Part shown: positions 39,393 through 51,403 of the stretch, one piece after another
How positions within the stretch are numbered: position 1 is the stretch's first letter
Layout of the letters: each line of letters begins with the position of its first letter
Source of the DNA: Parolsenella massiliensis
GTDB lineage: Bacteria; Actinomycetota; Coriobacteriia; Coriobacteriales; Atopobiaceae
Direction: 5' to 3'
Length of the DNA: 64,000 nt
Assembly (NCBI RefSeq): GCF_900143685.1
Contig: NZ_LT671675.1
Span: 1,419,985 to 1,483,984 of the forward strand
Made by a program: the position numbers and the translations under genes
Notes under the pieces: model-generated
The model's database searches: none
What the model saw: the letters and a program-made list of their open reading frames with translations, nothing else
Told to the model about the DNA's origin: nothing

Positions 39393-40427
39393 ATGTCCTA
39401 CATCGACCTCGACGAGACCCGCCCGCTCGACATCGTCCTGCTCGGCCGCATCGCCATCGACTTCAACCCCGCCTACTCAGACTCCGTGAAGGAGGAGTTC
39501 AAGCCGCTCAAGGACGTCCACTACTTCGAGAAGTACGTGGGCGGCTCGCCGGCCAACATCGCCGTGGGCGTCACGCACCACGGCCTCAAGGCGGGATTCA
39601 TCGGCAAGGTGTCAGACGACCAGTTCGGCGACTTCGTCACCGAGTACTTTGACGCCCAGGGCATCGACACGAGCCACGTCACGCGCTGCACGAACGGCGA
39701 GAAGATCGGCCTCACGTTCACCGAGATGCTCTCCCCCTCCGAGAGCCACATCCTGATGTATCGCAACTGCATCGCAGACCTGCAACTCTCCGTCGACGAC
39801 ATCGACCCCGACTACATCGCGAGCGCCAAGCTTCTGCTCATCTCCGGCACCGCCCTTGCCGAGAGCCCCAGCCGCGAGGCGGCCATCAAGGCCGTGCTCG
39901 TTGCCCGCCAGGTGGGCACGCCCGTCGTGTTCGACATCGACTACCGCGCCTACAACTGGAAGAACGCCGACGAGATCTCCATCTACTACTCCTACGTGGC
40001 ACGCCTGTCCGACATCATCATGGGCAGCCGCGAGGAGTTCGACCTCACCGAGGCGCTCATCTGCCCCGGCATGGCCGACGAGCAGAGCGCCGTCTACTGG
40101 CAGAAGCGAAACGCCAAGATCGTGGTCATCAAGCACGGCATGGAGGGCTCCACCGCCTACTGCAACGACGGCGAGAAGTTCTCCATCAAGCCCTTCCCCG
40201 TCACGGCACGGAAGGGCTTCGGCGGCGGCGACGGCTATGGCTCGGGCTTCCTCTACGGCCTGTTCCAGGGCTGGGACATCCAGGACTGCCTGGAGTTTGG
40301 CTCGGCCGAGGCGTCCATGATGGTGCGCGCCAACAACTGCTCCGACGCCCTGCCCGGCCCCGACGAGGTGCGCGCGTTCATCGCCGAGGAGAAGGCCCAG
40401 TACGGAGAGATGGTGGCCCGCGCATGA
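39393..40427 (+). CDS. PfkB-family carbohydrate kinase, IolC-like
   Basis: A 344-residue PfkB-superfamily kinase most like 5-dehydro-2-deoxygluconokinase (IolC): DIVLLGRIAIDFNP, YVGGSPANIAVGVTHHGLKAGFIG and VFDIDYRAYNWKN are IolC-type stretches. The usual GAGDAF catalytic motif reads GFGGGDGYGSGF, keeping the Asp. No other inositol genes are in the window, so the substrate may be another deoxy- or keto-sugar linked to the aldolase upstream. The ATG at 39393 follows AAGGGAGCACGCC. Confidence 0.85.
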   Translation: MSYIDLDETRPLDIVLLGRIAIDFNPAYSDSVKEEFKPLKDVHYFEKYVGGSPANIAVGVTHHGLKAGFIGKVSDDQFGDFVTEYFDAQGIDTSHVTRCTNGEKIGLTFTEMLSPSESHILMYRNCIADLQLSVDDIDPDYIASAKLLLISGTALAESPSREAAIKAVLVARQVGTPVVFDIDYRAYNWKNADEISIYYSYVARLSDIIMGSREEFDLTEALICPGMADEQSAVYWQKRNAKIVVIKHGMEGSTAYCNDGEKFSIKPFPVTARKGFGGGDGYGSGFLYGLFQGWDIQDCLEFGSAEASMMVRANNCSDALPGPDEVRAFIAEEKAQYGEMVARA

Positions 40428-40549
40428 CGGAGCTTCTCGTTGCCCTGTGCGCGGTGTTCCTCGTGGTCATGGGCGTCAGGCCCGCATCGCCTGACAAGGG
40501 GGCAGTCCCCTTGTCACCTTTTATGGGCGGCAAGGCCGGCATCGCTTGA
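40424..40549 (+). CDS. Possible small peptide overlapping the kinase stop (41 aa)
   Basis: An ATGA overlap with the kinase stop starts a frame with a hydrophobic N-terminus (TELLVALCAVFLVVMGV) that then runs into the palindromic repeat and ends. The coupling and membrane-like start are suggestive, but much of the frame is repeat sequence, so it may be a decayed small membrane protein. Confidence 0.25.
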   Translation: MTELLVALCAVFLVVMGVRPASPDKGAVPLSPFMGGKAGIA

Positions 40550-40573
40550 CAAGGGGACAGTCCCTTTGTCACC
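40492..40573. repeat. Tandem GGGGACAGTCCC palindromes
   Basis: Two near-identical hairpins, TGACAAGGGGGCAGTCCCC plus TTGTCA at 40492-40516 and TTGACAAGGGGACAGTCCC plus TTTGTCA from 40546, each preceded by a GCATCGC stretch, 54 bases apart. They share TGACA/TGTCA ends with the other interspersed repeats here. They lie between the kinase and ADH genes. Confidence 0.75.
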
Positions 40574-40591
40574 TCTTCTGAAGGGAATCAC

Positions 40592-41749
40592 ATGAGTACG
40601 GCTCACTCGTTCGTCACACCGCATCACATCGTCTACGGGCAGGGCGCGCTCGCAAGCGCCGCGGGGCGCCTCGCGCGCATGGGCACGCGCGCGCTCATCG
40701 TCACGGACTCCGTCATGGTCAAGCTTGGCAACCTCGGCCGCGTCACCGACGTGCTCGACGCGGCCGGCATCACCTACCACGTCTACGACGAGGTCAACTC
40801 CGAGCCCATCGACCGCATGGTGGAGAAGGGCGTTGCCCTCTATGCCGAGCAGGGCTGCGACTTCATGATCGCCCTGGGCGGAGGAAGCCCCATTGACACA
40901 ATGAAGGCCATCGCCATGTGCGCCGCCTCGGGCGCGCCGATCGCCTCGTTCATGGGCAAGCCCTACACCGGCCCCGTCTGTCCCATGGTCGCCATCCCCA
41001 CCACGGCGGGCACGGGCTCGGAGGCCACGCAGTTCACGATCATCACCGACACCACCCACGACGTGAAGATGCTCATCGCGGGCACGCCGCTCATCCCCGA
41101 GCTCGCCATCGTGGACCCCGCGTTCACGATGACCGCCCCCGCGAGCGTCACGGCCGCCACGGGCGTCGACGCGCTGTGCCACGCCATCGAGTCGTTCACC
41201 TCGCGCAAGGCCCAGCCGCTCTCGCGCACGTTCTCGCTGTCTGCCGCCAAGCGCATCTTCGCCAACCTCGCCACCTGCGTGGCCGAGCCCGGCAACGTCG
41301 AGGCCCGCACGCAGATGTCGATCGCCGCAACCGAGGCGGGCATCGCGTTCAACAACTCGTCCGTCACGATCATCCACGGCATGAGCCGCCCCATCGGCGC
41401 GCTGTTCCACGTGCCGCACGGCCTGTCAAACGCCATGCTCATGGAGGCGTGCTTCGACTTCGCGCTCGACGGCGCCTACCCCGAGTTCGCCGAGGTCGCG
41501 CGCTACTGCGGGCTCACGAGCGCCGAGGATGACGAGCAGGCCGCACGCGACCTCATGACCGCCATCCACGAGCTTCTCGGCGCCGTGGGCATCCCCACAC
41601 TCGCGGAGTTCGGCGTGGGACGCGACCAGTTCCACGCGGCCATCGACAAGATGGCGGCAGACGCCGAGGCAAGCGGCAGCCCCGCCAACACCATCAAGCC
41701 CGTGACGCAGGCCGACATGAAGGTCATCTACCAGCGAGTCTACTCGTAA
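40592..41749 (+). CDS. Iron-containing alcohol dehydrogenase
   Basis: A 385-residue group III metal-dependent dehydrogenase acting on alcohols, aldehydes or polyols. NAD motif GGGSPIDTMKA, then PTTAGTGSEAT and the metal-binding region with GVDALCHAIESF and MSRPIGALFHVPHGLSNA (His ligands). RBS GAAGGGAATCAC. Follows the kinase gene with a repeat between. Related enzymes include 1,3-propanediol, lactaldehyde and butanol dehydrogenases; substrate undetermined, possibly reducing an aldehyde from the aldolase step. Confidence 0.93.
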   Translation: MSTAHSFVTPHHIVYGQGALASAAGRLARMGTRALIVTDSVMVKLGNLGRVTDVLDAAGITYHVYDEVNSEPIDRMVEKGVALYAEQGCDFMIALGGGSPIDTMKAIAMCAASGAPIASFMGKPYTGPVCPMVAIPTTAGTGSEATQFTIITDTTHDVKMLIAGTPLIPELAIVDPAFTMTAPASVTAATGVDALCHAIESFTSRKAQPLSRTFSLSAAKRIFANLATCVAEPGNVEARTQMSIAATEAGIAFNNSSVTIIHGMSRPIGALFHVPHGLSNAMLMEACFDFALDGAYPEFAEVARYCGLTSAEDDEQAARDLMTAIHELLGAVGIPTLAEFGVGRDQFHAAIDKMAADAEASGSPANTIKPVTQADMKVIYQRVYS

Positions 41750-41795
41750 GTGGCGCCGCCCCGTGAGTCCCGCACGGAACAGCGCCACCTCGTCC

Positions 41796-42917
41796 CTACT
41801 GCGCCGCCGCCCGCGTATCCTCCACGCCGGCGGCGGCGCAGTACTGCTCGAGGTTGCTGCGAAACACCAGCTGCACGGGCCCCATCTGGACGTCCTCGGC
41901 GGGGCGCTTGCCCCACAGCAGGCAGTCGCCGAGCGTCCTCGCGGCGCGATACGCCATGCCCACGGGGTCCTTGTACACAAGGTTCGTGAGCAGCCCCGCC
42001 CGCAGCGCTTCCACGCTCTCGGGGAACAGGTCGTTGCCGATGGCACGCACGGCAGGCGCGTCCTCGTGCCCGAGCACCTCGATGACGGCCTCCGTGCCCA
42101 CGGCGGACACACTGCACACGAGCTGCGCACCCTCGCAGCCCAGGGCCGTCTCGAGCGCGATCTCCAGCTCGACGGTCCTCGCGTGGGCACCGGGCAGGTC
42201 CACGATGCGAACACCCGGCGTCTCGACGGCGAGCGCCTCGGTGAACGCCTGGGCCACGAGGCGGTGCGAGTCCGTGCTTGCGTCGCCCGAGAGCAGGATG
42301 ACGCAGGGGTCCGCAACGTTTGCGAGCAGGTTCGCGGCCTGCTCGGCCATGAGCGCGCCGGCCGCGCGGTAGTCGGTGATGACGGCGCCGATGCGCCCCA
42401 CGGAGGCACAGTCACCGTCGAGCAGAAGCACGCTCACGCCCGCCTCGGCATTTTTCCCGAGGAGCGCGCGCTCCTCGTCCGTCGTGGGCGCAAACGCGAG
42501 AAGCCCGCCGATCTCCTCGCCCACCTCGAGCCGCGCCACGAGCGAGCGCAGCGCGTCCGCGTAGCCGCCCAGGGCAAACTCCACCGGCTCGAACGCGATG
42601 CCGGCATCGCGAGACTCCGCGGCGAAGCGCTGGCAGCCCTCCCACAGGTAGGCGTAGAAGTAGCTGCCCTCACGCTGGGACGACGGCAGACAGGCGACGA
42701 GCCGGACGTCCTTGCGGCTCAGGTTGGACGCGCCCTCGTTTCTGCGGTACCCCATGTCCGTGGCCGTGGCGATGATCTTGGCGCGCATGGCGTCGCTGAG
42801 CCCGGGCTTACCCGCGATGGCCTTGTGAACCGTGTTGATGGACACGCCCAGCCTGCCCGCGATGTCCTTCATCGTCACGCGGCCCGACGTGGGGGCGCTG
42901 TTGGTGCTCGTCGTCAT
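41796..42917 (-). CDS. LacI-family transcriptional regulator
   Basis: A 373-residue repressor. Helix-turn-helix and hinge lie in TMKDIAGRLGVSINTVHKAIAG, followed by a periplasmic-binding-protein-like ligand domain (about 70-360). ATG at 42917 is chosen, but its ribosome binding site (GAAACGGACGAGC) is weak and a TTG at 42950 is an alternative. It diverges from the AEC transporter gene, its likely target. It is also the only LacI-type regulator in the window and so a formal candidate for the GTGAACGTTCAC sites; that is speculative. Confidence 0.9.
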   Translation of the reverse strand: MTTSTNSAPTSGRVTMKDIAGRLGVSINTVHKAIAGKPGLSDAMRAKIIATATDMGYRRNEGASNLSRKDVRLVACLPSSQREGSYFYAYLWEGCQRFAAESRDAGIAFEPVEFALGGYADALRSLVARLEVGEEIGGLLAFAPTTDEERALLGKNAEAGVSVLLLDGDCASVGRIGAVITDYRAAGALMAEQAANLLANVADPCVILLSGDASTDSHRLVAQAFTEALAVETPGVRIVDLPGAHARTVELEIALETALGCEGAQLVCSVSAVGTEAVIEVLGHEDAPAVRAIGNDLFPESVEALRAGLLTNLVYKDPVGMAYRAARTLGDCLLWGKRPAEDVQMGPVQLVFRSNLEQYCAAAGVEDTRAAAQ

Positions 42918-43011
42918 GCTCGTCCGTTTCTCTGTATTGTTTGGTAGCAATTATGGCATCGGGCGTCGCGGCTGTCCGCGGCGCGCCGCGATGCGAGAAA
43001 GGAAGCCCGGC

Positions 43012-43935
43012 GTGGTAGACGTACTCATCAAGGTGGCGGCGTTCGTGAGCATCATCGTGGCCGGCTACTATGCCGGCCGCTCCGGCAAGCTGGGGCGTGG
43101 CACGGGCGGCGTGCTGTCCAAGATCGTGTTCAACCTCACGCTGCCCTGCGCCGTCATCCACGCGTTTGGCGCCGCGGAGTTCACGCTCGACTTGCTGTGG
43201 CTGTTCGTCGTGGCGGCGGCGTTCAACTTCGCGGCCTACTTCGCGATGTTCGCGGCCACGCGGCACAGCGAGCGCGCCGCGCGCGTCTACTACCTGTGCA
43301 ACATCTGCGGCTACAACATCGGCTGCTTTGCGCTGCCGTTCGTGCAGGCGTTCTTCCCGCCGGCGCAGGCCGTGGCGATTTGTTTGTTCGACGCCGGCAA
43401 CTCCATCATGATGAGCGGCGGCACCTACGCGCTCACGAGCGTGCTCGCCAGCGAGAAGCCCGTCGAGCACCCGGTGCGCCTTGCGGCCAAGCGGCTGTTC
43501 TCCTCGGTCACGGTGGACGCCTACCTCGTGCTCGTGACCATGGCGCTGCTGCGCATCCCCGTACCGCAGGCGATCGTGCAGTTCACCGAGCCCATGGCCA
43601 ACGCCAACGCGTTTCTCGCGATGTTCATGCTGGGGCTCGTGACGAACCTGCACGTAGACGCGCAGAAGGTGGGCAGGCTCGTGCGCCTGCTTGGCGCAAG
43701 GCTTGCGGCAAACGTGCTGTTCACGGCCATCGTCTTGCTGGCGCTGCCGTTTGCGCCGGGCGTCAAGGTCATCGTGTGCATGGGCGTGTGGGCGCCCATC
43801 GGCGCCATGGGTCCCGTGTTCACGATGTGGTGCCACGGCGACCACGGCCTGGCCGGCCTCGCGAACGCCGTGAGTGTGGTCGTGGCGGTGATCGCGATGA
43901 CGGGCATCGTGCTCGCCACAGGCGCCATGGGCTAG
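43012..43935 (+). CDS. AEC-family transporter
   Basis: An integral membrane carrier (307 residues, about ten helices) of the auxin-efflux-carrier/malate-permease family, which moves small organic acids or amino acids. Family-like segments are LSKIVFNLTLPCAVIHAF and NICGYNIGCFALPF. A GTG start at 43012 follows GAAAGGAAGCCCGGC; the open frame upstream overlaps the LacI gene and is not coding. It diverges from LacI and precedes a hydroxyacyl-CoA-type dehydrogenase, suggesting uptake of a hydroxy- or keto-acid. Confidence 0.85.
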   Translation: MVDVLIKVAAFVSIIVAGYYAGRSGKLGRGTGGVLSKIVFNLTLPCAVIHAFGAAEFTLDLLWLFVVAAAFNFAAYFAMFAATRHSERAARVYYLCNICGYNIGCFALPFVQAFFPPAQAVAICLFDAGNSIMMSGGTYALTSVLASEKPVEHPVRLAAKRLFSSVTVDAYLVLVTMALLRIPVPQAIVQFTEPMANANAFLAMFMLGLVTNLHVDAQKVGRLVRLLGARLAANVLFTAIVLLALPFAPGVKVIVCMGVWAPIGAMGPVFTMWCHGDHGLAGLANAVSVVVAVIAMTGIVLATGAMG

Positions 43936-44071
43936 CGACGACTGCGATCCGCCCGAACGGCGCCCCAGAGGCATCGCCGACGCCACTCGCGGATTCGAGC
44001 AATGCGCCGCAGCTCGGCGGCGCTATAACAACCAGCGGGGCTATCAAACATCCAACAAGAGAGGGGTCCCA

Positions 44072-45046
44072 ATGGACATCAAGGACGTCAAGAGGGTCAC
44101 CATCGCGGGCTGCGGCACCGAGGGCAGCCAGATCGCGTCGATGGTTGCGTACAAGGGCTTCGAGACCACCGTCTGGCTGAGGAGCGAGGGCTCCGTCGAG
44201 CGCGCCCAGCCGCGCCTCGCAAGCGTCAAGAAGCAGATCGTGGACGTGCTCAACGCCTGGAAGACCGATCCTGCCGCCTACTGCCGCGGCCTGTCCGATG
44301 ACCGCGACCTCACGCCCGAGCAGATCGACGAGCTCATCGCCCAAGCCGAGGAGCGCCTGCCGCGCATCCACCTCACCACGAGCCTCGAGGAGGCGTTTGG
44401 GAACGCGGACGTCGTCATCGAGTGCATCAACGAGGACCCCGCGCAGAAGACCGACCTCTACGAGAAGATCGCGCCCGTGATGCCCGAGCACACGGTGCTG
44501 CTCACGGACTCCTCGACGTTCCTCCCCAGCACGTTCGCCGATGCCACGGGGCGCCCGGACCGCTACCTCACGCTTCACTTCGCCAACCAGATCTGGCGCA
44601 ACAACCTCACCGAGCTCATGCGCCACGACCGCACGAGCGACGAGAGTTTCACGCTGGCCGAGCAGTTCTCCTACGCCATCGGCATGATTCCGCTCAAGCT
44701 CAACAAGGAGCAGCCGGGCTACATCCTGAACACCCTGCTCATCCCCTGGTTCCGCGCCGCGCTGCAGCTCGTGGCCACCGGCGTGAGCGATCCGGCGACC
44801 GTTGACCTGTGCTGGGAGCTCGACACGGGCGCCACGAAGGACCAGACGCCGTTCCGCAAGCTCGACAAGGTGGGCCTGCCGCTCGCGATGCACATCATGG
44901 GCATGCAGCCCGGCGCCGACGACCCCACGACCGTCAACGGCCAGATCGTGGCGCTGCTGCGCGGTTACGTCGAGGCGGGCAAGACCGGCATCGCCGTGGG
45001 CGAGGGCTTCTACCGCTATGACGAGAACGGCAACGTGATCGAGTAG
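44072..45046 (+). CDS. 3-hydroxyacyl-CoA dehydrogenase-family protein
   Basis: A 324-residue NAD-dependent dehydrogenase. Rossmann loop VTIAGCGTEGSQIASMVAY, conserved ECINEDPAQKTDLYEKI, and LTLHFANQIW in place of the usual HFFNP active-site His motif. The C-terminal helical domain holds GYILNTLL. Relatives include 3-hydroxybutyryl-CoA dehydrogenase and L-gulonate/carnitine dehydrogenases. RBS AGAGAGGGGTCCC. Because no thiolase or CoA transferase is nearby and the active-site motif is changed, a free hydroxyacid may be the substrate. Confidence 0.85.
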   Translation: MDIKDVKRVTIAGCGTEGSQIASMVAYKGFETTVWLRSEGSVERAQPRLASVKKQIVDVLNAWKTDPAAYCRGLSDDRDLTPEQIDELIAQAEERLPRIHLTTSLEEAFGNADVVIECINEDPAQKTDLYEKIAPVMPEHTVLLTDSSTFLPSTFADATGRPDRYLTLHFANQIWRNNLTELMRHDRTSDESFTLAEQFSYAIGMIPLKLNKEQPGYILNTLLIPWFRAALQLVATGVSDPATVDLCWELDTGATKDQTPFRKLDKVGLPLAMHIMGMQPGADDPTTVNGQIVALLRGYVEAGKTGIAVGEGFYRYDENGNVIE

Positions 45047-45210: not shown

Positions 45211-45930
45211 CTACACGTCAAACGCGTAGTGGCTCCCCACGTAGTACTGCCGGCCAATCGCAATCGGACGCCCGTCCTTGTCCACGAAGAACGCGTTCAT
45301 GTACAGCAGCGGCGCCTTCGCCGGCACCTGCAGCAGCGATGCCTGCTCCTGAGAGGCAGAGACGGCCTCAAGCGTCAGATGGCTGTTGGCAACCGGACGT
45401 CTGCCACCCTCGCGCTCAATCGCATCGAATATCGACACGTCATCGAGCGCGGCACTCATGACCCCGCGGAACTCGTCGTAGGGCAAAAAGATGTTCTCCT
45501 CGTAAATGGGCACGTCGTCCGCCGTGCGCACGCGGCGCACGTAGAGCAGCAGCGCCTCGGCTCCCAGGCCAAAGAAACGCCGCTCGTCGCCACGGATGGG
45601 CACGATCTGCCTGTCAACCAGCCTGGCACCCGGCTCAAGCCCCTGCTCGCGGCACAGCTGCGTGAACGAGACGAGCCCGTTGCCCGTGCGCCTCAGCTGG
45701 CGCGAGAAGCGCGTCTTGCTCACGAAGGTGCCAACCCCCTGGTGCTTGATGAGAAACCCGTTGTTGCACAGCTCCTCGATGGCCCTGCGCACCGTGATGC
45801 GGCTCGCACCGAACTCCGCGCACAGCTCCTGCTCCGAGGGGATCTTGTCGCCGGGCTTGTACGTCCCCATCTCGATGGAGGCGCGAACGTCCTCGTAAAT
45901 CTTCTGGTACAGCAGGGATGACTTTGCCAT
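45211..45930 (-). CDS. GntR-family regulator (HutC/UTRA type)
   Basis: A 239-residue regulator with a winged helix (about 5-75: GDKIPSEQELCAEFGASRITVRRAIEEL split by family spacing) and a C-terminal UTRA ligand domain ending GRQYYVGSHYAFDV. The ATG at 45930 is preceded by CGGAGTTGAGTG; a GTG three bases earlier is possible. It is encoded just beyond the end of the second mannose-type PTS/SIS operon on the same strand, and its promoter shares an operator-like sequence with that operon. This family often senses amino-sugar phosphates or Amadori products. Confidence 0.92.
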   Translation of the reverse strand: MAKSSLLYQKIYEDVRASIEMGTYKPGDKIPSEQELCAEFGASRITVRRAIEELCNNGFLIKHQGVGTFVSKTRFSRQLRRTGNGLVSFTQLCREQGLEPGARLVDRQIVPIRGDERRFFGLGAEALLLYVRRVRTADDVPIYEENIFLPYDEFRGVMSAALDDVSIFDAIEREGGRRPVANSHLTLEAVSASQEQASLLQVPAKAPLLYMNAFFVDKDGRPIAIGRQYYVGSHYAFDV

Positions 45931-45954
45931 CACTCAACTCCGAGCCTGTCTCTA

Positions 45955-45971
45955 ACACGTATATGACATCT
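45955..45971. promoter_or_regulatory. Candidate GntR operator (autoregulatory)
   Basis: ACACGTATATGACATCT; on the minus strand AGATGTCATATACGTGT, which matches the site AGACGTTATATACGTCT upstream of the PTS operon at 14 of 17 positions. Located just upstream of the GntR gene start. Confidence 0.55.
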
Positions 45972-46071
45972 TATTCATCGTAACCGATGCCGCCTCTCCC
46001 CATGACACAAATCGGCGACCGCCCGGCTCGAGAGCCAAGCGGCCGCCAACTGAAGGGAGGGCAAATCTGAG

Positions 46072-47187
46072 CTACTTCTCGGTGCTGTAGTTGTCACGCA
46101 CGCCATCGAGCTTCTTGCTGCCGATGCGCTTGTGGAACAGCGGGTCCTTGGGGATGGACGGGTCCACGCCGTGGTCCTGCGCCGCAAAGCACGAGACGAC
46201 CTGCATCGGGATGATGTACTCCCAGCACGAGAACAGCGGGTCCTCGGTGAACGGGACGATGCAGTCAAAGTCCGTGGGGGCATCGACGCCCTGTGGGGAG
46301 GCGATGAGGTAGTTGTGGCTCGTCCACTCGCTCAGGATCTCGATGAGCTTGAGCGTCCTGGGCTTGTAGTCGCCCTCGGAGGCCAGGTAGAACAGGTAGC
46401 TGTCCTCGCTGATCGAGTTGTAGATGCCGTGGAAGAACTCCTCGATGTCATAGCCGGTGACGCCCACGCGCACGGTCTCGAGCGTCTTGAGCGCACCCTC
46501 GAGCACGTCGCCGTACATGCCGTCGTAGCCCACGACGATGATGCGCTTGGCGTCGAACAGGTCCTTGGAGATGCGCTGGTACCAGGCAACGGCGGCGTCG
46601 GTGACGGCCGGGAGGTTGGCGGTGACCTTCTTCATGCGCGCCACGTAGCCCTCGACGGTCTGGGCGTCCACGATGCCCTTGGCCTGCGCGAGCTCGGTGA
46701 GCATGACCATGAGCGTGGCGATCGAGCCGGCGTAGCCCTTGGTCTTGGCGCCGCACAGCTCGTTGCCGAGAACCTCGAGCAGCGTCTTGGTCTGGGCGTG
46801 CTCGAACACGAGCGCCGTGGGGTTCTCGCTCACCGCGGCGGTCAGCAGGCCGCGCTCGGCGGCCGCGTCGAGGCCCTCGACCGTCGAGAGGCTCTGGCCG
46901 CCCTGGGAGATGCCGATGACCAGCGACTTCTTGTCATAGACCTTCTCGTCGCGGGCAAAGCGGGTGGGGTACATCGGGATGATCTTCCAGCCCGTGAGCT
47001 CCTCGAGGTAGAGCTTGGCGGAGACGCCCGAGTGGTAGCTCGTGCCCGAGCCGATGATGTAGACCGTCTCGATGTCTGCGTCCTTGAACTGCTCGACGAA
47101 CTCGGCGCAGATGCGGGCGCGCTCGTCGATGATGTGGTTGAGGACGTCGGGGGTCTCGCGGATGTAGTCGTACATGATGCTAGCCAT
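46072..47187 (-). CDS. SIS-domain sugar-phosphate deglycase/isomerase (FrlB/GfrF/AgaS-like)
   Basis: A 371-residue protein with two SIS domains like the isomerase half of GlmS. Phosphosugar-binding loops: IIGSGTSYHSGVSAK (about 44-58) and IGISQGGQSLSTVEG, with a second domain from DAKRIIVVGYDGMYGD. In known operons such proteins split fructoselysine or glucoselysine 6-phosphate, or deaminate galactosamine 6-phosphate. Its ATG overlaps the stop of the PTS IID gene (TAATG), so it acts on the sugar brought in by that PTS. The Amadori-product role is inferred from the union with a mannose-family PTS and a GntR regulator. Confidence 0.88.
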   Translation of the reverse strand: MASIMYDYIRETPDVLNHIIDERARICAEFVEQFKDADIETVYIIGSGTSYHSGVSAKLYLEELTGWKIIPMYPTRFARDEKVYDKKSLVIGISQGGQSLSTVEGLDAAAERGLLTAAVSENPTALVFEHAQTKTLLEVLGNELCGAKTKGYAGSIATLMVMLTELAQAKGIVDAQTVEGYVARMKKVTANLPAVTDAAVAWYQRISKDLFDAKRIIVVGYDGMYGDVLEGALKTLETVRVGVTGYDIEEFFHGIYNSISEDSYLFYLASEGDYKPRTLKLIEILSEWTSHNYLIASPQGVDAPTDFDCIVPFTEDPLFSCWEYIIPMQVVSCFAAQDHGVDPSIPKDPLFHKRIGSKKLDGVRDNYSTEK

Positions 47188-48029
47188 TAGAGCACTCCAA
47201 TGATTGCGCCGAGGATGCCGAGGATGATGAGGCCGTACATGATGTTGGTGGTCTTGACGCCCTTCTTGAGGAAGGCAAAGCAGCCAAACGTCAGGCCCAG
47301 GGGAAGGATAGAGGGCAGGATCTGGTCAAAGATGCTCTGCAGCTCCACCGTGCTCTCGCCCACCGTGATCGTGAGCGGCGTGGTGAAGGTGACCATCGAG
47401 GCGATCATCGCGCCCACCACGCACAGGCCCAGGATCTTGGCGCAGTTCGTGAGCAGCTCGATCGTGCCCGACTTCTGCATGGAGTCGATGAACCCAACAC
47501 CGCTCTTGTAACCGATCTTGAGGCCGTAGTAGCGCACGAGCAGAGCCGGGACGTTGAAGATGAGCAGGAACAGCAGCGCGCCGAGAATGGAGCCCTGCTG
47601 GGCCAGGCCGCAGCCCACGCCAGCGGCGATGACGCGGAACGTGCCCCAGAAGAACGAGTCGCCGATGCCCGCGACGGGGCCCATGAGGGCGGTCTTGAGC
47701 GAGGTAATCGACTCGGTGTCGAACTCGCGACCCTCGAGCTCGGCCTTGCGGTTCTCCTCCTCCATGGCCACGCAGGCGCCCGTGATGAAGGTCACGACCT
47801 GCGGCGTGGTGTTGAAGAACGACAGGTGGCGCGCCATGGCCTGCGCGCGCTGCTCGTCATCGGGGTACAGGCGCTTGAGCACCGGGACCATCGAGTAGCA
47901 GAAGCCCACGTTCTGCATGCGCTCGTAGTTGAACGCGGCCTGCAGCGGGAAGGAGCGCCAGAAGACCTTGCGCATGTCCCCCTTGGTGACGAGGCCGCCT
48001 TCCTTGAGGGGCTCTTCGAGGTTAGCCAT
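47187..48029 (-). CDS. PTS mannose-family IID component (second system)
   Basis: A 280-residue IID membrane subunit. The MGPVAGIGDSFFWGTFRVIA motif and N-terminal FWRSFPLQAAFNYERMQNVG are family-typical. It overlaps IIC upstream and the SIS gene downstream by one base each (TAATG), indicating tight translational coupling. Confidence 0.95.
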   Translation of the reverse strand: MANLEEPLKEGGLVTKGDMRKVFWRSFPLQAAFNYERMQNVGFCYSMVPVLKRLYPDDEQRAQAMARHLSFFNTTPQVVTFITGACVAMEEENRKAELEGREFDTESITSLKTALMGPVAGIGDSFFWGTFRVIAAGVGCGLAQQGSILGALLFLLIFNVPALLVRYYGLKIGYKSGVGFIDSMQKSGTIELLTNCAKILGLCVVGAMIASMVTFTTPLTITVGESTVELQSIFDQILPSILPLGLTFGCFAFLKKGVKTTNIMYGLIILGILGAIIGVL

Positions 48030-48826
48030 TACAGTTCACCATCCAGGTCATCGGAGTCGGCAGCTTGGGCGGCAACGGTGAGGCCGGCAAGCTCTTCGCG
48101 GCGCTTCACGGCGGTCTGGTAGACCACGTAGGCGATGATCGCGCCCACGATGGCCACGCCCGTGGTGCTCATGCCGAGCAGCGCGGTAAGGACGAAGCCC
48201 ACGAACAGGTAGGCGGCGTTGGCCTTGTCGAAGATGAGGTTCATCAGGATCGCGATGCCCAGCGCCGGAAGCATGCCGCTCGCGACCTCGAAGCCGTGGA
48301 GCAGCTGGTCAGGCAGCCAGTCAACGAAGTCGCTGATGACCTGCGAGCCCAGCAGCACGCCGAGGAACACCACGAGGAAGGACGTGAGCCAGAACAGTGC
48401 GGCGCCGCCCCACAGAGCACGCGAGATGCCCTTGTCGTCGCCCTTCTCGGCCGCCTTATCCGCCATGCGGCAGAAGCCGAGGTTGAGCGTACGGTCGAGG
48501 ATGCCCAGCAGCTGGCCAAGCGTGGCGATGGGCAGGGAGAGGGCCACCGCGGTGCCGGTGTCGAGGCCGGAGAGGATGGCGAACGCCGTGGAGAGGATGC
48601 CGCCGCAGACGACCTCGGGCGGAACCGCCGCGCCGATGCCCACGGCGCCCATCATGACGAGCTCCACCGCCGCGCCCATGGTGATGCCCGTCTGGACGTC
48701 GCCAAGGATCAGGCCAACGATCGGTCCCAGGACCAGCGGGCGCTCGAACATGGTCTGGCCGGCAACGCGGCCGTCCCACATCCCGAAGCCCGCGAGGGCG
48801 CCCAGGAGCAGGGCTTGAACTACCAT
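48029..48826 (-). CDS. PTS mannose-family IIC component (second system)
   Basis: A 265-residue IIC membrane subunit with about eight helices; GQTMFERPLVLGPIVGLILGD and GAAVELVMMGAVGIG are conserved. RBS TAGGAGGTAGCA. A 163-base gap separates it from IIB, longer than elsewhere in the operon and without an evident gene. Confidence 0.95.
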   Translation of the reverse strand: MVVQALLLGALAGFGMWDGRVAGQTMFERPLVLGPIVGLILGDVQTGITMGAAVELVMMGAVGIGAAVPPEVVCGGILSTAFAILSGLDTGTAVALSLPIATLGQLLGILDRTLNLGFCRMADKAAEKGDDKGISRALWGGAALFWLTSFLVVFLGVLLGSQVISDFVDWLPDQLLHGFEVASGMLPALGIAILMNLIFDKANAAYLFVGFVLTALLGMSTTGVAIVGAIIAYVVYQTAVKRREELAGLTVAAQAADSDDLDGEL

Positions 48827-48989
48827 TGCTACCTCCTACGTCAGAACGAACTTGATTGCTTGCCGCCGGTGTTTTTCGCACCAGCTCATCAACGGGTGGC
48901 GCCTGGTCCATCCGTGAAGTGCCACGCTTGGGTTTGGCTGGGTCCGTGGGCGCCGCTCGATTGGCACGCCTACGCCCCCCGCGGCGCCG

Positions 48990-49475
48990 CTAGTTGGCGA
49001 ACGCCCTCTTGATCGCCGCGAGGTCCATGGGGCTCTGGTCGGGAACGGACTGCAGCGTCACCTTGCAGCCGTGGGCCTCGATGTCGTCCAGGGCCGCGAC
49101 CTCCTCCTGGTCCAGGTAGACCTGCGGGGCGATCTGCTTGCGCTCGCCCGCCTGGCGAACGCCGCCCAGGCAGACGTGCTTGACCTCGGGGCACTCCGCC
49201 ACGATGCAGGCGGCATCCTTGGGGCTCGCGCAGACGACGAAGATCTTGCGCGAAGCGTGCTTGGGGTTGTTGATCACGAGGATGGCGCCGGCCACGGACT
49301 TGATGGAGAGCACCACCTGGGGCGGCTTGGCCAGCTTGAAGGCAGACTGCATCAGGGTGTCCTTGGCGGCCTTGTCGTTGGCGACGACGATGGTGTCGGC
49401 CCCGAGGTGGGAGGTCCAGGTCACCGCGACCTGCCCGTGGATGAGCCTGTCGTCAACGCGGAGAAGCTCGATCAT
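48990..49475 (-). CDS. PTS mannose-family IIB component (second system)
   Basis: A 161-residue IIB subunit; the phospho-His is in RVDDRLIHGQVAVTW. The ATG at 49475 is preceded by GAAAGGACGTGCGTACA; the frame extends three codons to a GTG that would sit too close to that signal. It follows IIA by 36 bases. Confidence 0.94.
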   Translation of the reverse strand: MIELLRVDDRLIHGQVAVTWTSHLGADTIVVANDKAAKDTLMQSAFKLAKPPQVVLSIKSVAGAILVINNPKHASRKIFVVCASPKDAACIVAECPEVKHVCLGGVRQAGERKQIAPQVYLDQEEVAALDDIEAHGCKVTLQSVPDQSPMDLAAIKRAFAN

Positions 49476-49511
49476 TGTACGCACGTCCTTTCCGTTGTGG
49501 ATCTCGTTTTC

Positions 49512-49964
49512 CTAGAGCTCGTCTGACTCGCTGTCGACGTCGCCATCGTCGGCGGGAACGAGGTCTGCGAGCAGGCCAATCCCCTCCTTGGAGGCGTTCA
49601 CGGCCTGGCGTACGAGCGCCTCGTTGCCTTCCGTGTCGCCGGGCACGAGTGGCAGCAGCGCAGTCTCGAGCAGAAGGCCCATGTTGAGGCCGGTCACGAA
49701 GACGACGTCGGGGTGGTTGGCGCGAACGCGAAGCGCCGCCTGCGTCGTGCTGCCGCCTGGAATGTCGGTGATGACCACGGTGGGCTGCGACTGGTCAAAG
49801 GAGGCCAGAGCGTCCTCGATGCGCTCGGCGATCGCGGGGATGGTCTCGGACGTCGTAACGGAGATGTACGCCGTGGGGCAGATGTCTCCCATAACGAGCT
49901 CGAGCGAGCTCAGGATGCCCTTCGCAAACTGCGCGTGGGTGACGAGAAGGATGCTGTTTGCCAT
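49512..49964 (-). CDS. PTS mannose-family IIA component (second system)
   Basis: A 150-residue IIA subunit; the phospho-His is in LLVTHAQFAKG (residue 9), with the family TDIPGGSTTQAAL region. It has an acidic C-terminal tail. RBS CAGGAGGCCGCT. First gene of the IIA-IIB-IIC-IID-SIS operon; the promoter region carries a candidate GntR operator at 50009. Confidence 0.93.
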   Translation of the reverse strand: MANSILLVTHAQFAKGILSSLELVMGDICPTAYISVTTSETIPAIAERIEDALASFDQSQPTVVITDIPGGSTTQAALRVRANHPDVVFVTGLNMGLLLETALLPLVPGDTEGNEALVRQAVNASKEGIGLLADLVPADDGDVDSESDEL

Positions 49965-50008
49965 AGCGGCCTCCTGTTGCGCTCGGTGCTCCTGCTTGAT
50001 TTCGATAT

Positions 50009-50025
50009 AGACGTTATATACGTCT
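50009..50025. promoter_or_regulatory. Candidate GntR operator before the second mannose-type PTS
   Basis: AGACGTTATATACGTCT, with perfect AGACGT/ACGTCT arms, 45 bases ahead of the IIA start in an AT-rich promoter region. A related site lies before the GntR gene. Further AGACGT and ACGTCT half-sites lie at 50144-50149 and 50164-50169, ahead of the diverging YitT-like gene. Confidence 0.65.
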
Positions 50026-50182
50026 TCTATTTCTTGAACAATAGATTTATGTTTCGATTGGTTTTCGAGTCTGCAAGCGGTAGTGCATGAACCGTTTACC
50101 GGGAATGATTCGGTCTTGCTTGTAATCTTGCTTTACTTGTTATAGACGTATTGTTTTTAGATAACGTCTTAGGGAGGGTACC

Positions 50183-51241
50183 GTGCCAAGGCAGAGAAGC
50201 AAGGAACGCCGCACGATTCGCACGAGGCAGAGGCGAGGCGAGCTGCGGGCCGTCTCGGAGGAGACGCTTCGCGATGCCGAGGTGACACCCCACGAGGCAG
50301 AGCCCGCCTACGAGGGCGCCTCGCTCATCCAGGCCGAGAAGCTCCTCTCCCCCGAGGAATACGAGAGGAGCGAGAGCGTCATCGACCGGCGCGACAACAC
50401 CGGTGCCCTCAAGACGGCCGTGATGCTCAACCTCGCCGTCATGATGGCCGCGCTCTCCTACGTTCTCTTCACCGCGCCCAACCACCTGGCGCTCGGCGGC
50501 GCCTCCGGTCTCTCGATCGTGGTCGCGGGTCTCGTCCCGGGGCTACCGAACACCGTTGCCCTGTGGGCCATTAACCTCATATGCATCGTGGTGGGGCTTG
50601 CTCTGGTTGGGAGAAAGACGGTTGCGTGGAGCGTGGCGGCCTCGCTTGCACTGTCCACGTACGTCTCGGCGTTCTCCAAGCTCATGCCGGTCTCCCAATC
50701 GATCACCGGCGACCTGTGGATCGACCTCATGTGCGCCGTCGTGCTCACCGCCACGAGCGCGGCCATGGCCTACAGCGTGGGCGCGTCAACCGGCGGCACG
50801 GACATCATCATCGTCGCGCTGTCCAAGCTCACGAGCCTGACCACAGGAAACGCCACCCTCATCGTGAACTCGTTCTCCGTGGTGGGAAGCCTTTTGCTCT
50901 TTGACGTGCGCACGGGCATCTACTGCGTGATCGGGTTGCTCGTCATGACCGTCGTAGTGAACGGCGTGCTGGACGGTCTGAAGCAGCACAAGGTGGTGAC
51001 CGTCATCTGCAAGCAGCCCGCCCGCGCGGAGGAGTTCATCTGCCGCGAGCTGTGCCGCACCGCAACGGTGAGCCAGGCGTGGGGCGCCTACTCCGGCAAC
51101 GCCGTGACGCAGATCATGACGGTACTCACGCCCAAGGAGACGCTGCGGCTTGAGCTGTTCGTGCGCGAGCTGGACTCCAGCGCCTTCATCACCTACGTGA
51201 ACACCTCGCAGATCACCGGCCGCGGCTTTCGCTGGGTGTAG
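50183..51241 (+). CDS. YitT-family membrane protein
   Basis: A 352-residue protein: a charged N-terminal region of about 70 residues (RSKERRTIRTRQRRG), five to six membrane helices (about 75-260) with the motif ASTGGTDIIIVALSKL, and a C-terminal DUF2179 domain ending SAFITYVNTSQITGRGF. Family members are abundant in Gram-positives but function is not established. The start is GTG at 50183 after AGGGAGGGTACC. It diverges from the PTS operon. The long basic N-terminal extension is unusual for the family. Confidence 0.87.
   Translation: MPRQRSKERRTIRTRQRRGELRAVSEETLRDAEVTPHEAEPAYEGASLIQAEKLLSPEEYERSESVIDRRDNTGALKTAVMLNLAVMMAALSYVLFTAPNHLALGGASGLSIVVAGLVPGLPNTVALWAINLICIVVGLALVGRKTVAWSVAASLALSTYVSAFSKLMPVSQSITGDLWIDLMCAVVLTATSAAMAYSVGASTGGTDIIIVALSKLTSLTTGNATLIVNSFSVVGSLLLFDVRTGIYCVIGLLVMTVVVNGVLDGLKQHKVVTVICKQPARAEEFICRELCRTATVSQAWGAYSGNAVTQIMTVLTPKETLRLELFVRELDSSAFITYVNTSQITGRGFRWV

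Positions 51242-51326: not shown

Positions 51327-51403
<77 letters not shown>

Follow-up and report, generated by a model that had tools for sequence, protein, structure and literature searches.

A putative mobile PTS module for sugar-amine conjugates, built around a GlmS/GfrE-like SIS enzyme, in Parolsenella massiliensis

Introduction

Which compound is imported by a mannose-type phosphotransferase system (PTS) whose operon encodes a single SIS-domain phosphosugar enzyme and adjoins a GntR-family regulator? The layout readily invites the label 'gfr', for fructoselysine and glucoselysine utilization. One such operon lies in a 64,000-nucleotide stretch of Parolsenella massiliensis contig NZ_LT671675.1 (hereafter the window), and an initial annotation had read it as a likely Amadori-product or amino-sugar utilization operon with a FrlB/GfrF/AgaS-like SIS protein. 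The branch of SIS enzymes concerned is represented among C. difficile, Salmonella, and Klebsiella proteins, and crystal structures exist for two of its members, CD3275 and 3knz. In the portions covered, the open-access literature on STM0571-0577, CD3275, and Heyns products, and among the matches listed for YitT and for Collinsella with fructoselysine, assigns this branch no function or substrate (PMC12136445, PMC8241443, PMC3844500, PMC4219756, PMC6232153).

The explanation we prefer, and to which we give about an even chance, is that the locus is a mobile, GntR-controlled catabolic module that imports a sugar-amine conjugate and splits its 6-phosphate. The PTS would take up the conjugate and phosphorylate it at C6. 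In the SIS enzyme, a histidine would open the ring and a glutamate would shift a proton between C1 and C2, setting the amine free; a 2-amino-2-deoxy-aldose 6-phosphate (Heyns-type, e.g. from a glucosyl-amino acid, of which glucoselysine is an example) would yield the amine and fructose-6-phosphate, which would enter glycolysis. GntR would act through a palindrome on both the PTS operon and a divergent YitT gene. In the weakest step of the proposal, YitT would most likely be the membrane transporter of the freed amine or amino acid. If true, the proposal offers a testable substrate class and gives a functional setting to the YitT family, which to our knowledge is annotated only as uncharacterised.

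Materials and methods

Three loci entered the sample in duplicate (L044 = G036, L045 = G115, L046 = G140). The L044 row was dropped from the first SIS tree as a duplicate locus, and the 25-row clade in that tree counts the window twice. Two later trees used subsets of 78 and 50 rows; both omitted AgaS, which had a very long branch in the first tree. Picking of open reading frames (ORFs) overlooked IID in four loci (L044, L046, L051, and L054), where tblastn then located it, and GntR in two (L044 and L046), where it was added later. In high-GC loci it took antisense shadows, of which cluster F116 looks like one, and other genes may have been missed.

Results and discussion

Gene organization

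On the minus strand the genes run IIA-IIB-IIC-IID-SIS, followed by a UTRA-type GntR gene, and a YitT gene diverges from the PTS operon (Table 1). Every gene named in the initial annotation was found on that strand with its Pfam match. All four mannose-family EII subunits, with Pfam scores over the cut-offs, lie in one operon, headed by the EIIA gene as in related loci; in a tree of IIC and IID the PTS is of type A. EIIB starts at either GTG 49484 or ATG 49475. Translational coupling, claimed between the PTS and the SIS protein, holds for IIC-IID-SIS, where stop and start overlap as TAATG at IIC/IID and IID/SIS; IIB and IIC are 163 nt apart. The reported lack of a second SIS gene is borne out within the window, where the SIS gene was the sole match to PF01380 (E 1e-3); elsewhere in the genome that search found one GlmS-sized gene and three further loci.

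Table 1. Features of the module and its flanking sites, in window coordinates.
Feature	Position	Strand	Evidence
GntR-family regulator with UTRA domain	45211..45933	-	PF00392, 73 bits; PF07702, 91 bits
Stable stem-loop, SIS stop to GntR start	45934..46075	-	-65.2 kcal/mol; z -4.28, 200 shuffles
Weaker operator-like site, upstream of GntR gene	45954..45972	+	4 mismatches
Two-SIS phosphosugar enzyme, GlmS/GfrE-type, 371 aa	46072..47187	-	PF01380, 56 bits
PTS EIID	47187..48029	-	PF03613, 359 bits
PTS EIIC	48029..48826	-	PF03609, 243 bits
PTS EIIB	48990..49484	-	PF03830, 156 bits; motif RVDDRLIHGQV
PTS EIIA, mannose/fructose/sorbose family	49512..49964	-	PF03610, 56 bits; THAQFAKG contains His
Operator-like palindrome AAGACGTATATAACGTCTA, upstream of IIA	50008..50026	-	0 mismatches
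Weaker operator-like site, near YitT start	50134..50152	-	4 mismatches; same block in alignment
YitT-family membrane protein with DUF2179	50183..51241	+	PF02588, 120 bits; PF10035, 44.5 bits

The unit first described left the GntR gene outside its range, did not include the YitT gene, and ended at position 50025, inside the operator-like palindrome. From the gene and site arrangement, the functional unit appears larger, as the divergent YitT gene likely shares an operator with the PTS operon. A PfkB-family kinase gene (39393-40427, opposite strand) lies outside the module, and no relative was found in the viral collection.

The SIS enzyme

Among curated family models, the SIS protein matched GlmS best (131 bits) and NagB-II (NF046059) second best (65.6 bits), with cut-offs of 381 and 430, respectively. 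It is not itself a GlmS, as it falls below the subfamily cut-off, is 371 aa long, and has SIS as its only Pfam domain, without a glutaminase. AgaS membership was rejected at 19.6 bits against a cut-off of 529 (TIGR02815), and the FrlB model (NF008481) gave no match at E 1e-3 in the same search that scored E. coli FrlB at 812 bits. In alignment columns the GlmS positions K485, E488, H504, E481, S347, and Q348 are kept, whereas the K485 position and the C-tail are absent from all five FrlB-type rows. The pocket differs from that of GlmS by S349 to Gly, T352 to Ser, V399 to Gly, and S401 to Lys, the last in 17/17 aligned rows of the SIS group; K603 aligns with Gly, and Ser-Lys comes next. An AlphaFold model (pLDDT 91.5) was most similar in predicted fold to 3g68 (Z 47.7), Lmo0035 (46.2), and 3knz (41.4), then to GlmS/GFAT (about 38-43), AgaS-like proteins (about 36), GlcN6P deaminases (about 30-36), and the GfrF/FrlB/FraB types (about 27-32; FraB, absent from the SIS trees, about 27).

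The SIS enzyme is GlmS/GfrE-like, with the GlmS Lys-Glu-His catalytic positions. Since Lys485-Glu488-His504 is kept and the FrlB types lack the lysine, the substrate appears more likely to be a C2-amino-aldose-6-phosphate, whether a Heyns product or an amino sugar, than a classical Amadori product.

In the 50-row tree the window SIS enzyme falls in an uncharacterised 26-row clade with C. difficile CD3275 (3g68) and the Salmonella protein 3knz (support 99/98). This clade, one further branch, and the GfrE group make up a 36-row set (100/99), and FrlB/GfrF are not inside it. AU tests, carried out with the trees already known, reject joining with FrlB/GfrF (p 4.7e-6) and with GfrE (p 3.8e-10), and we rejected membership in either. 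In the family-level and class-level samples around two hosts, only the centre genomes matched (1/397 and 1/391, E 1e-100). The suggested FrlB/GfrF/AgaS-like identity is therefore not upheld by models or trees; what stays plausible of the utilization reading is the pairing of a phosphosugar SIS enzyme with a mannose-family PTS, and a single step.

By the initial annotation's own rule, that grouping with GlmS-like enzymes speaks against its idea, the idea would fail, the enzyme being GlmS-like and outside FrlB/GfrF and GfrE. That rule does not discriminate, however, because the Salmonella GfrE-position protein (L142) also matches GlmS best, at 121 bits. A deglycase of the GfrE/GlmS kind is therefore still possible for the window enzyme, and this kind favours 2-amino-2-deoxy-aldoses (Heyns products or amino sugars) over Amadori ketoses. 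Because the enzyme lies outside the GfrE clade, GfrE chemistry is inferred for it without shared membership.

Two narrower readings can be weighed here. Fructoselysine or another classical Amadori product, as first annotated, strikes us as improbable. The layout is gfr-like, and five relatives carry FrlB-type cassettes beside the same YitT subtype and a GntR 50-53% identical to that of the window, so related inducers are possible. A gfrF mutant, moreover, keeps residual growth on fructoselysine, for which the portion of PMC12675984 covered suggests relaxed GfrE specificity or another deglycase; the GlmS-like type is thus no strict exclusion of Amadori substrates. The missing FrlB match, the AU result, the retained Lys485 position and C-tail, and the lower predicted structural similarity to FrlB, FraB, and GfrF all point the other way.

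Glucoselysine itself, with the SIS enzyme as a diverged GfrE, seems equally hard to credit: the GlmS-like type is common to the window and the GfrE-position proteins of Salmonella and E. faecium, all PTS-linked, but identity is 24%, the clade is separate with the AU test against joining, and the loop reads GAKTKGY (with an IPKDP...SK tail, as in the 3g68/3knz group) rather than the GfrE-type GFVTKGY or GFVTRGF. Salmonella has both types in separate operons, which suggests different jobs.

Comparison with known systems

The putative PTS operon STM0577-0572 of Salmonella likewise has a mannose PTS followed by a SIS gene of the window's group (3knz, NP_459565.1, 33% identical); unlike the window, it encodes an additional SIS protein of FrlB type, together with a LevR-type sigma54 activator. 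From the 97.7% identity of 3knz to the SIS protein of locus L112 and from gene order, we infer that 3knz is STM0573. STM0571 is named as uncharacterised in the part of PMC4987338 covered. In C. difficile, CD3279-CD3275 also joins a mannose PTS to a single SIS enzyme (3g68, 36% identical, Z 47.7 to the model), but is under LevR/SigL control according to the available part of PMC7438776, as against GntR/UTRA in the window. That C. difficile locus (L093, 17 kb) has no YitT among its picked ORFs, and its PTS belongs to another clade. Salmonella gfrABCDEF, for fructoselysine and glucoselysine, shares the mannose PTS, the SIS deglycase, and an equally GlmS-like GfrE-position protein; it differs in having two SIS deglycases and the LevR-type GfrR, and the window SIS enzyme belongs to neither the GfrE nor the GfrF clade. 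In the window the adjacent regulator is GntR/UTRA, and the ORFs picked at 38-56 kb include no LevR-like gene of cluster F5.

Neighbouring genes and the amino-sugar alternative

L-asparaginase-cluster genes follow SIS on the same strand in 6/20 orthologous Firmicutes loci (0.07 expected). Save for one pair, these asparaginases are only 27-50% identical to each other, and the gene was apparently recruited repeatedly into such operons. An amino acid permease follows in two of the 20 loci (L052, by Pfam, and L065, same cluster) and a gamma-glutamyltranspeptidase in one (L062). The asparaginase linkage hints at glycated amino acids, and for some of these related operons the foremost candidate is glycated asparagine. 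Split by PTS subtype, asparaginase occurs in 0/12 loci of the window's subtype against 6/12 of the other (Fisher p 0.014). The asparagine hint may therefore not extend to the window, for which glycated asparagine is only a possibility. Salmonella fra, for fructose-asparagine, likewise combines a SIS deglycase pathway with an asparaginase; the window has none linked. The genome's one PF00710 gene lies at 171 kb of the contig and the module at 1.466 Mb, and asparaginase was rejected as part of the module. In the portion of PMC12755824 covered, FraE is placed in the periplasm, FraA takes up the substrate, and the kinase FraD phosphorylates it, where the window has a PTS instead.

A free amino sugar is a rather unlikely alternative: the PTS would deliver the 6-phosphate of glucosamine, galactosamine, or mannosamine to a SIS enzyme acting as a NagB-II/GlmD-like deaminase, with ammonia and fructose-6-phosphate (or tagatose-6-phosphate) as products. 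Mannose-family PTSs can carry amino sugars. The fold is common to the window enzyme, the GlmS isomerase domain, and NagB-II, and the Lys-Glu-His positions are those of GlmS; NagB-II is the second-best curated family, but its 66 bits are far under the cut-off, and the lysine at the Ser401 position also counts against a free amino sugar. The amino-acid genes beside some Firmicutes operons also weigh against this alternative, although in the window's own PTS subtype the two permeases are the only such neighbours left. The ORFs picked in the 23 loci included no member of cluster F30, which resembles E. coli agaA, and those picked at 38-56 kb of the window included neither agaA-like (F30) nor kbaZ/kbaY-like (F67, F51) cluster genes. 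Were this alternative true, the locus would be an ordinary operon for glucosamine whose layout misleads.

YitT, GntR, and cassette exchange

Returning to the conjugate-splitting module, the window's YitT subtype adjoins a mannose-PTS/SIS cassette in 13/13 family genomes carrying it (140 searched); these are not 13 independent events, because 11 of the genomes belong to one genus, and we set the figure aside as a strong independent count. The cassettes are of three kinds, one of them FrlB-type. GntR and YitT mark the ends of the block that the window has in common with 12 related loci. Of the remaining window ORFs at 36-64 kb, none matched those loci; YitT thus seems to have moved with the operon. 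The window GntR is 66% identical in type-1 relatives and 50-53% in type-3.

That YitT is merely a frequent neighbour, the functional unit being PTS-SIS-GntR, is a possibility we consider doubtful. Besides the dominance of one genus, YitT genes are multicopy, with 1-8 matches per genome across 15 genomes, and at three Firmicutes loci they share only about 22-23% identity with the window gene. On the other side stand the block ending at YitT, its presence beside three unlike cassettes, the palindromes in the shared gap, the single strand on which GntR and YitT lie in type-2 loci, and the other YitT subtypes that adjoin SIS/PTS operons in L049, L050, L053, and L092.

More speculatively, and with similarly limited confidence, a chassis of YitT and a HAD phosphatase, joined in two of the three cassette kinds by a related GntR and operator, may swap PTS-deglycase cartridges for C1- and C2-linked glycation products. 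YitT would export the freed amino acid, and the window cartridge would have a new deglycase specificity in which K148 binds an alpha-carboxylate. K148 is a lysine of the pocket loop, and the proposed ligand is an alpha-N-linked glycated amino acid, e.g. asparagine. No HAD phosphatase was found beside the window module. If true, bacteria would gain the use of glycation products by cartridge exchange.

Operator-like sites

The 17-base core of the palindrome upstream of IIA has one site genome-wide at up to 2 mismatches. Copies in type-1 relatives are exact or carry one mismatch, a variant is common to FrlB-type cassettes, and these palindromes sit in the shared YitT-IIA gap; in the four type-2 loci, a search allowing up to 5 mismatches to the operator found no palindrome. 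A promoter scan gave two sigma-70-like sites, none just upstream of IIA or YitT, and a terminator scan called no site at the stem-loop preceding GntR. The same scan gave 5 terminator-like sites against 3.5 expected, and the palindrome (50009-50025) is also terminator-like on the plus strand.

Gene content of the module

The components proposed in the initial annotation, a IIA-IIB-IIC-IID PTS, a two-SIS protein and a GntR/UTRA gene, were all recovered on the minus strand of the 2.0 Mb, single-contig genome, each with a Pfam score above the cut-off. The coupling of the PTS to the SIS gene also held, with TAATG overlaps at both IIC/IID and IID/SIS; a strong stem-loop (z -4.28) lies between the SIS and GntR genes. 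A second catabolic-looking cluster (39393-45046) lies beside the module.

Features of the module and its surroundings, in window positions
Feature	Position	Strand	Remark
PfkB kinase	39393-40427		cluster beside module
Fe-ADH	40592-41749		cluster beside module
LacI regulator	41796-42950		cluster beside module
Mem_trans transporter	42832-43935		cluster beside module
3-hydroxyacyl-CoA dehydrogenase-like gene	44072-45046		cluster beside module
GntR/UTRA gene	45211-45933	minus	Pfam above cut-off; 138 bases beyond SIS gene
Weaker operator-like site	45954		before gntR
Two-SIS protein	46072-47187	minus	Pfam above cut-off
IID	47187-48029	minus	Pfam above cut-off
IIC	48029-48826	minus	Pfam above cut-off
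IIB	48990-49484	minus	Pfam above cut-off
IIA	49512-49964	minus	Pfam above cut-off
Operator-like palindrome AAGACGTATATAACGTCTA	50008-50026		gap between IIA and YitT
Weaker operator-like site	50134		near YitT
YitT/DUF2179 gene	50183-51241		divergent from IIA

Affiliation of the SIS enzyme

The SIS protein had been described as FrlB/GfrF/AgaS-like, a description that its scores against the NCBIfam models contradict: GlmS was best (131 bits), followed by NagB-II (66), AgaS reached 20 bits against a cut-off of 529, and FrlB gave no match. Reference SIS proteins fell by model score into two types. The GfrE-position protein of the Salmonella gfr locus (L142; 121 bits), the first SIS protein of E. 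faecium (147) and that of the Salmonella STM0577-0572 locus (L112; 96) scored with GlmS, and none of them exceeded 22 bits with FrlB; FrlB was the best model for the GfrF-position protein (98 bits), the second L112 protein (110) and E. coli FrlB (812). The two gfr positions were assigned from the L142 gene order, LevR-IIA-IIB-IIC-IID-SIS-SIS, together with a passage of PMC4987338 in which STM4535-40 is printed as gfrABCDEF; PDB titles give 2a3n as stm4540.s and 3fkj as stm_0572.

In a bootstrapped tree of 50 sequences, the window protein fell in an 11-row clade (100/100) nested within a 26-row group (99/98) that includes C. difficile CD3275 (3g68) and the Salmonella protein 3knz. The 13 FrlB/GfrF rows grouped together (100/98), and the 6 GfrE rows apart from them (100/97); 36 rows (100/99) united the window group, the GfrE group and one further branch, with FrlB/GfrF outside. 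Larger quick trees (128 and 78 rows) were concordant. AU tests, done after the tree had been seen, rejected joining the window clade with FrlB/GfrF (p 4.7e-6) or with GfrE (p 3.8e-10). FrlB or GfrF identity was rejected on model scores, trees and AU tests, AgaS identity on its model score, and GfrE membership on the separate clade and its AU result. Glucoselysine, whose 6-phosphate the text of PMC12675984 assigns to GfrE, as it does fructoselysine-6-phosphate to GfrF (one figure legend there is reversed), is an improbable substrate. A classical Amadori substrate also seems improbable; it was kept among the readings because, in the same paper, a gfrF mutant showed residual growth on fructoselysine, for which its authors suggest relaxed specificity of GfrE or another deglycase.

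The AlphaFold model of the window protein (pLDDT 91.5) matched 3g68 with Z 47.7 and rmsd 1.8 over 347 residues, followed by Lmo0035 (Z 46.2), 3knz (41.4), GlmS/GFAT (about 38-43), AgaS-like entries (about 36), GlcN6P deaminases (about 30-36), and GfrF, FrlB and FraB types (about 27-32). Aligned with E. coli GlmS, whose residue roles are general knowledge, the protein retains K485, E488, H504, E481, S347 and Q348, and has Gly for S349, Ser for T352, Gly for V399, Lys for S401 and Gly for K603, the last with Ser-Lys just after. Five FrlB-type rows retain E488 and H504 and lack K485 and a comparable tail. The Ser401 position is Lys (window K148) in 17/17 window, 3g68 and 3knz rows and Val in GfrE rows; our guess is that K148 meets a carboxylate. 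Use of a free amino sugar, set beside this GlmS-type site and fold, is a possible though unlikely reading.

Distribution in relatives

The genome-collection scan returned 354 pattern matches and 196 relatives, of which the best 80 were used. Among these 80, 23 were 62-87% identical to the window protein and the next was 42% identical; three of the 23 carry Olsenella or Atopobium titles, and 20 are titled Clostridia, Lachnospiraceae or other Firmicutes. The gene was present in 4/140 family genomes (2/35 genera) and absent from G001, the other genome of the window organism's genus. In two samples, each centred on one host and comprising 397 and 391 genomes, it occurred in the hosts themselves only. 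So rare and patchy a distribution fits horizontal transfer. The order IIA-IIB-IIC-IID-SIS was found in 22 of the 23 loci, with IID recovered in some by additional search; the exception (L066) is cut by a contig end. A divergent upstream GntR gene was present in 17/20 Firmicutes loci, whose regulators are just 23-32% identical to the window GntR.

Several related loci were observed in passing. The sister operons L069 and L070 have two SIS genes, and in L070 a gene with 42% identity to E. coli KbaZ hints at tagatose-phosphate products in that branch. A Lactobacillus amylovorus plasmid (L040:6729-8062) carries a short IID and a 3g68-group SIS between transposase genes, adjoining tet(W). L043, a 900-kb record under the label Collinsella aerofaciens 'plasmid 6', holds a PTS with three SIS and two GntR genes; its size, and the presence of galE and murB, suggest that it is part of a chromosome.

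Association with YitT and proposed exchange of cassettes

YitT of the window subtype (E 1e-100) occurs in 13/140 family genomes, and a mannose-PTS/SIS cassette adjoins it in all 13. The cassette is of the window kind in four, has another GlmS-type SIS (26-28% identical to the window protein) in four (G017, G120, G126, G141) and has a FrlB-type SIS in five (G114, G118, G130, G131, G134), paired in 4/5. Since 11 of the 13 genomes belong to one genus, these represent a handful of independent arrangements rather than thirteen. In a comparison of the window ORFs between 36 and 64 kb with 12 of these YitT loci (8.5-19 kb each), the GntR-to-YitT block was the sole match, and YitT therefore appears, from sequence comparison, to belong to the mobile unit. 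A HAD phosphatase common to 11/13 loci was not found in the window or the G017 stretch.

The palindrome between IIA and YitT had no second site in the whole genome (17-base core, ≤2 mismatches), and its 19-base form arose in 0/100 window shuffles at ≤3 mismatches. Exact copies occur twice in each of two relatives with the window kind of cassette, L044 (as L145) and L046 (as L168); a third, L045 (as L167), has one exact copy and one with a single mismatch. A 2-mismatch version occupies the same gap in 4/5 FrlB-type loci, whose GntR is 50-53% identical to that of the window; in the FrlB-type locus L185, the version in the gap has 4 mismatches, and a 2-mismatch copy lies elsewhere.

YitT of another subtype, sharing about 22-23% identity with the window YitT, follows SIS in L049, L050 and L053 and comes first in the L092 PTS/SIS operon. 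In another genus of the family (L183, L184, L186, L187), a FrlB-type SIS pair, a deglycase-like pair of a different make-up, lies in one PTS operon beside YitT. A tRNA-Met gene (51327-51403) just past the window YitT may mark an edge of the transferred block.

Amino-acid genes beside related operons

An L-asparaginase-cluster gene (ASPARAGINASE) follows SIS on the same strand in 6/20 Firmicutes loci (L048, L049, L053, L054, L056, L057), its identity Pfam-checked in three (L048, L049, L056). The 20 host genomes hold 21 asparaginase genes in all, which puts the number expected in those stretches at 0.07, a Poisson figure that overstates independence because the loci are related. The six asparaginases are mutually 27-50% identical, bar one 70% pair, whereas the SIS proteins of these loci share 65-68% identity with that of the window, a contrast that suggests repeated recruitment. 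There is precedent for the link, as PMC12755824 describes fructose-asparagine in Salmonella fra being acted on by an asparaginase. On the 3g68 side, two Bacillus-type loci (L083, L084) have an upstream asparaginase. Among the Firmicutes loci, L062 has a gamma-glutamyltranspeptidase and L052 an amino acid permease, to whose cluster a gene of L065 also belongs.

The IIC+IID tree separated type A (12 loci including the window; support 93) from type B (12; support 100). All six linked asparaginases are in type B loci (Fisher p 0.014) and the window genome's own is not linked to the module; asparagine is therefore not named as the window substrate. The Firmicutes locus L054 (9073-12890) comes close to a self-contained PTS: its SIS gene is followed by HAD, by HPr and EI of the locus's own, and by the asparaginase-cluster gene.

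Proposed function

In the best-supported reading, the PTS would import the substrate with phosphorylation at C6, GlmS/GfrE-type cleavage would yield fructose-6-phosphate and an amine, GntR would control the module and YitT would handle a product; the class of chemistry is fairly well supported. PTS-linked SIS deglycases are already known, and what is new is that this operon is assigned to an uncharacterised SIS branch, that it is partnered with YitT, and that cassettes are exchanged. The open-access literature searched yielded no function for the SIS branch or for YitT in such a context: STM0571, activator of the Salmonella operon whose SIS protein is of this type, is termed uncharacterised in PMC4987338, and PMC7438776 lists CD3279-CD3275 just as a mannose-type PTS and sugar-phosphate isomerase.

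C. difficile (L093, genome G062) has a CD3275-like protein, and a search of G062 with E. faecium SIS1 found no GfrE-clade protein. The C. difficile mannose-PTS/SIS cluster labelled gfr in a portion of PMC8241443 may be the CD3275 operon. Part of PMC6232153 reports CD3277 and CD3276 up 4- and 6.6-fold, respectively, in faecal water.
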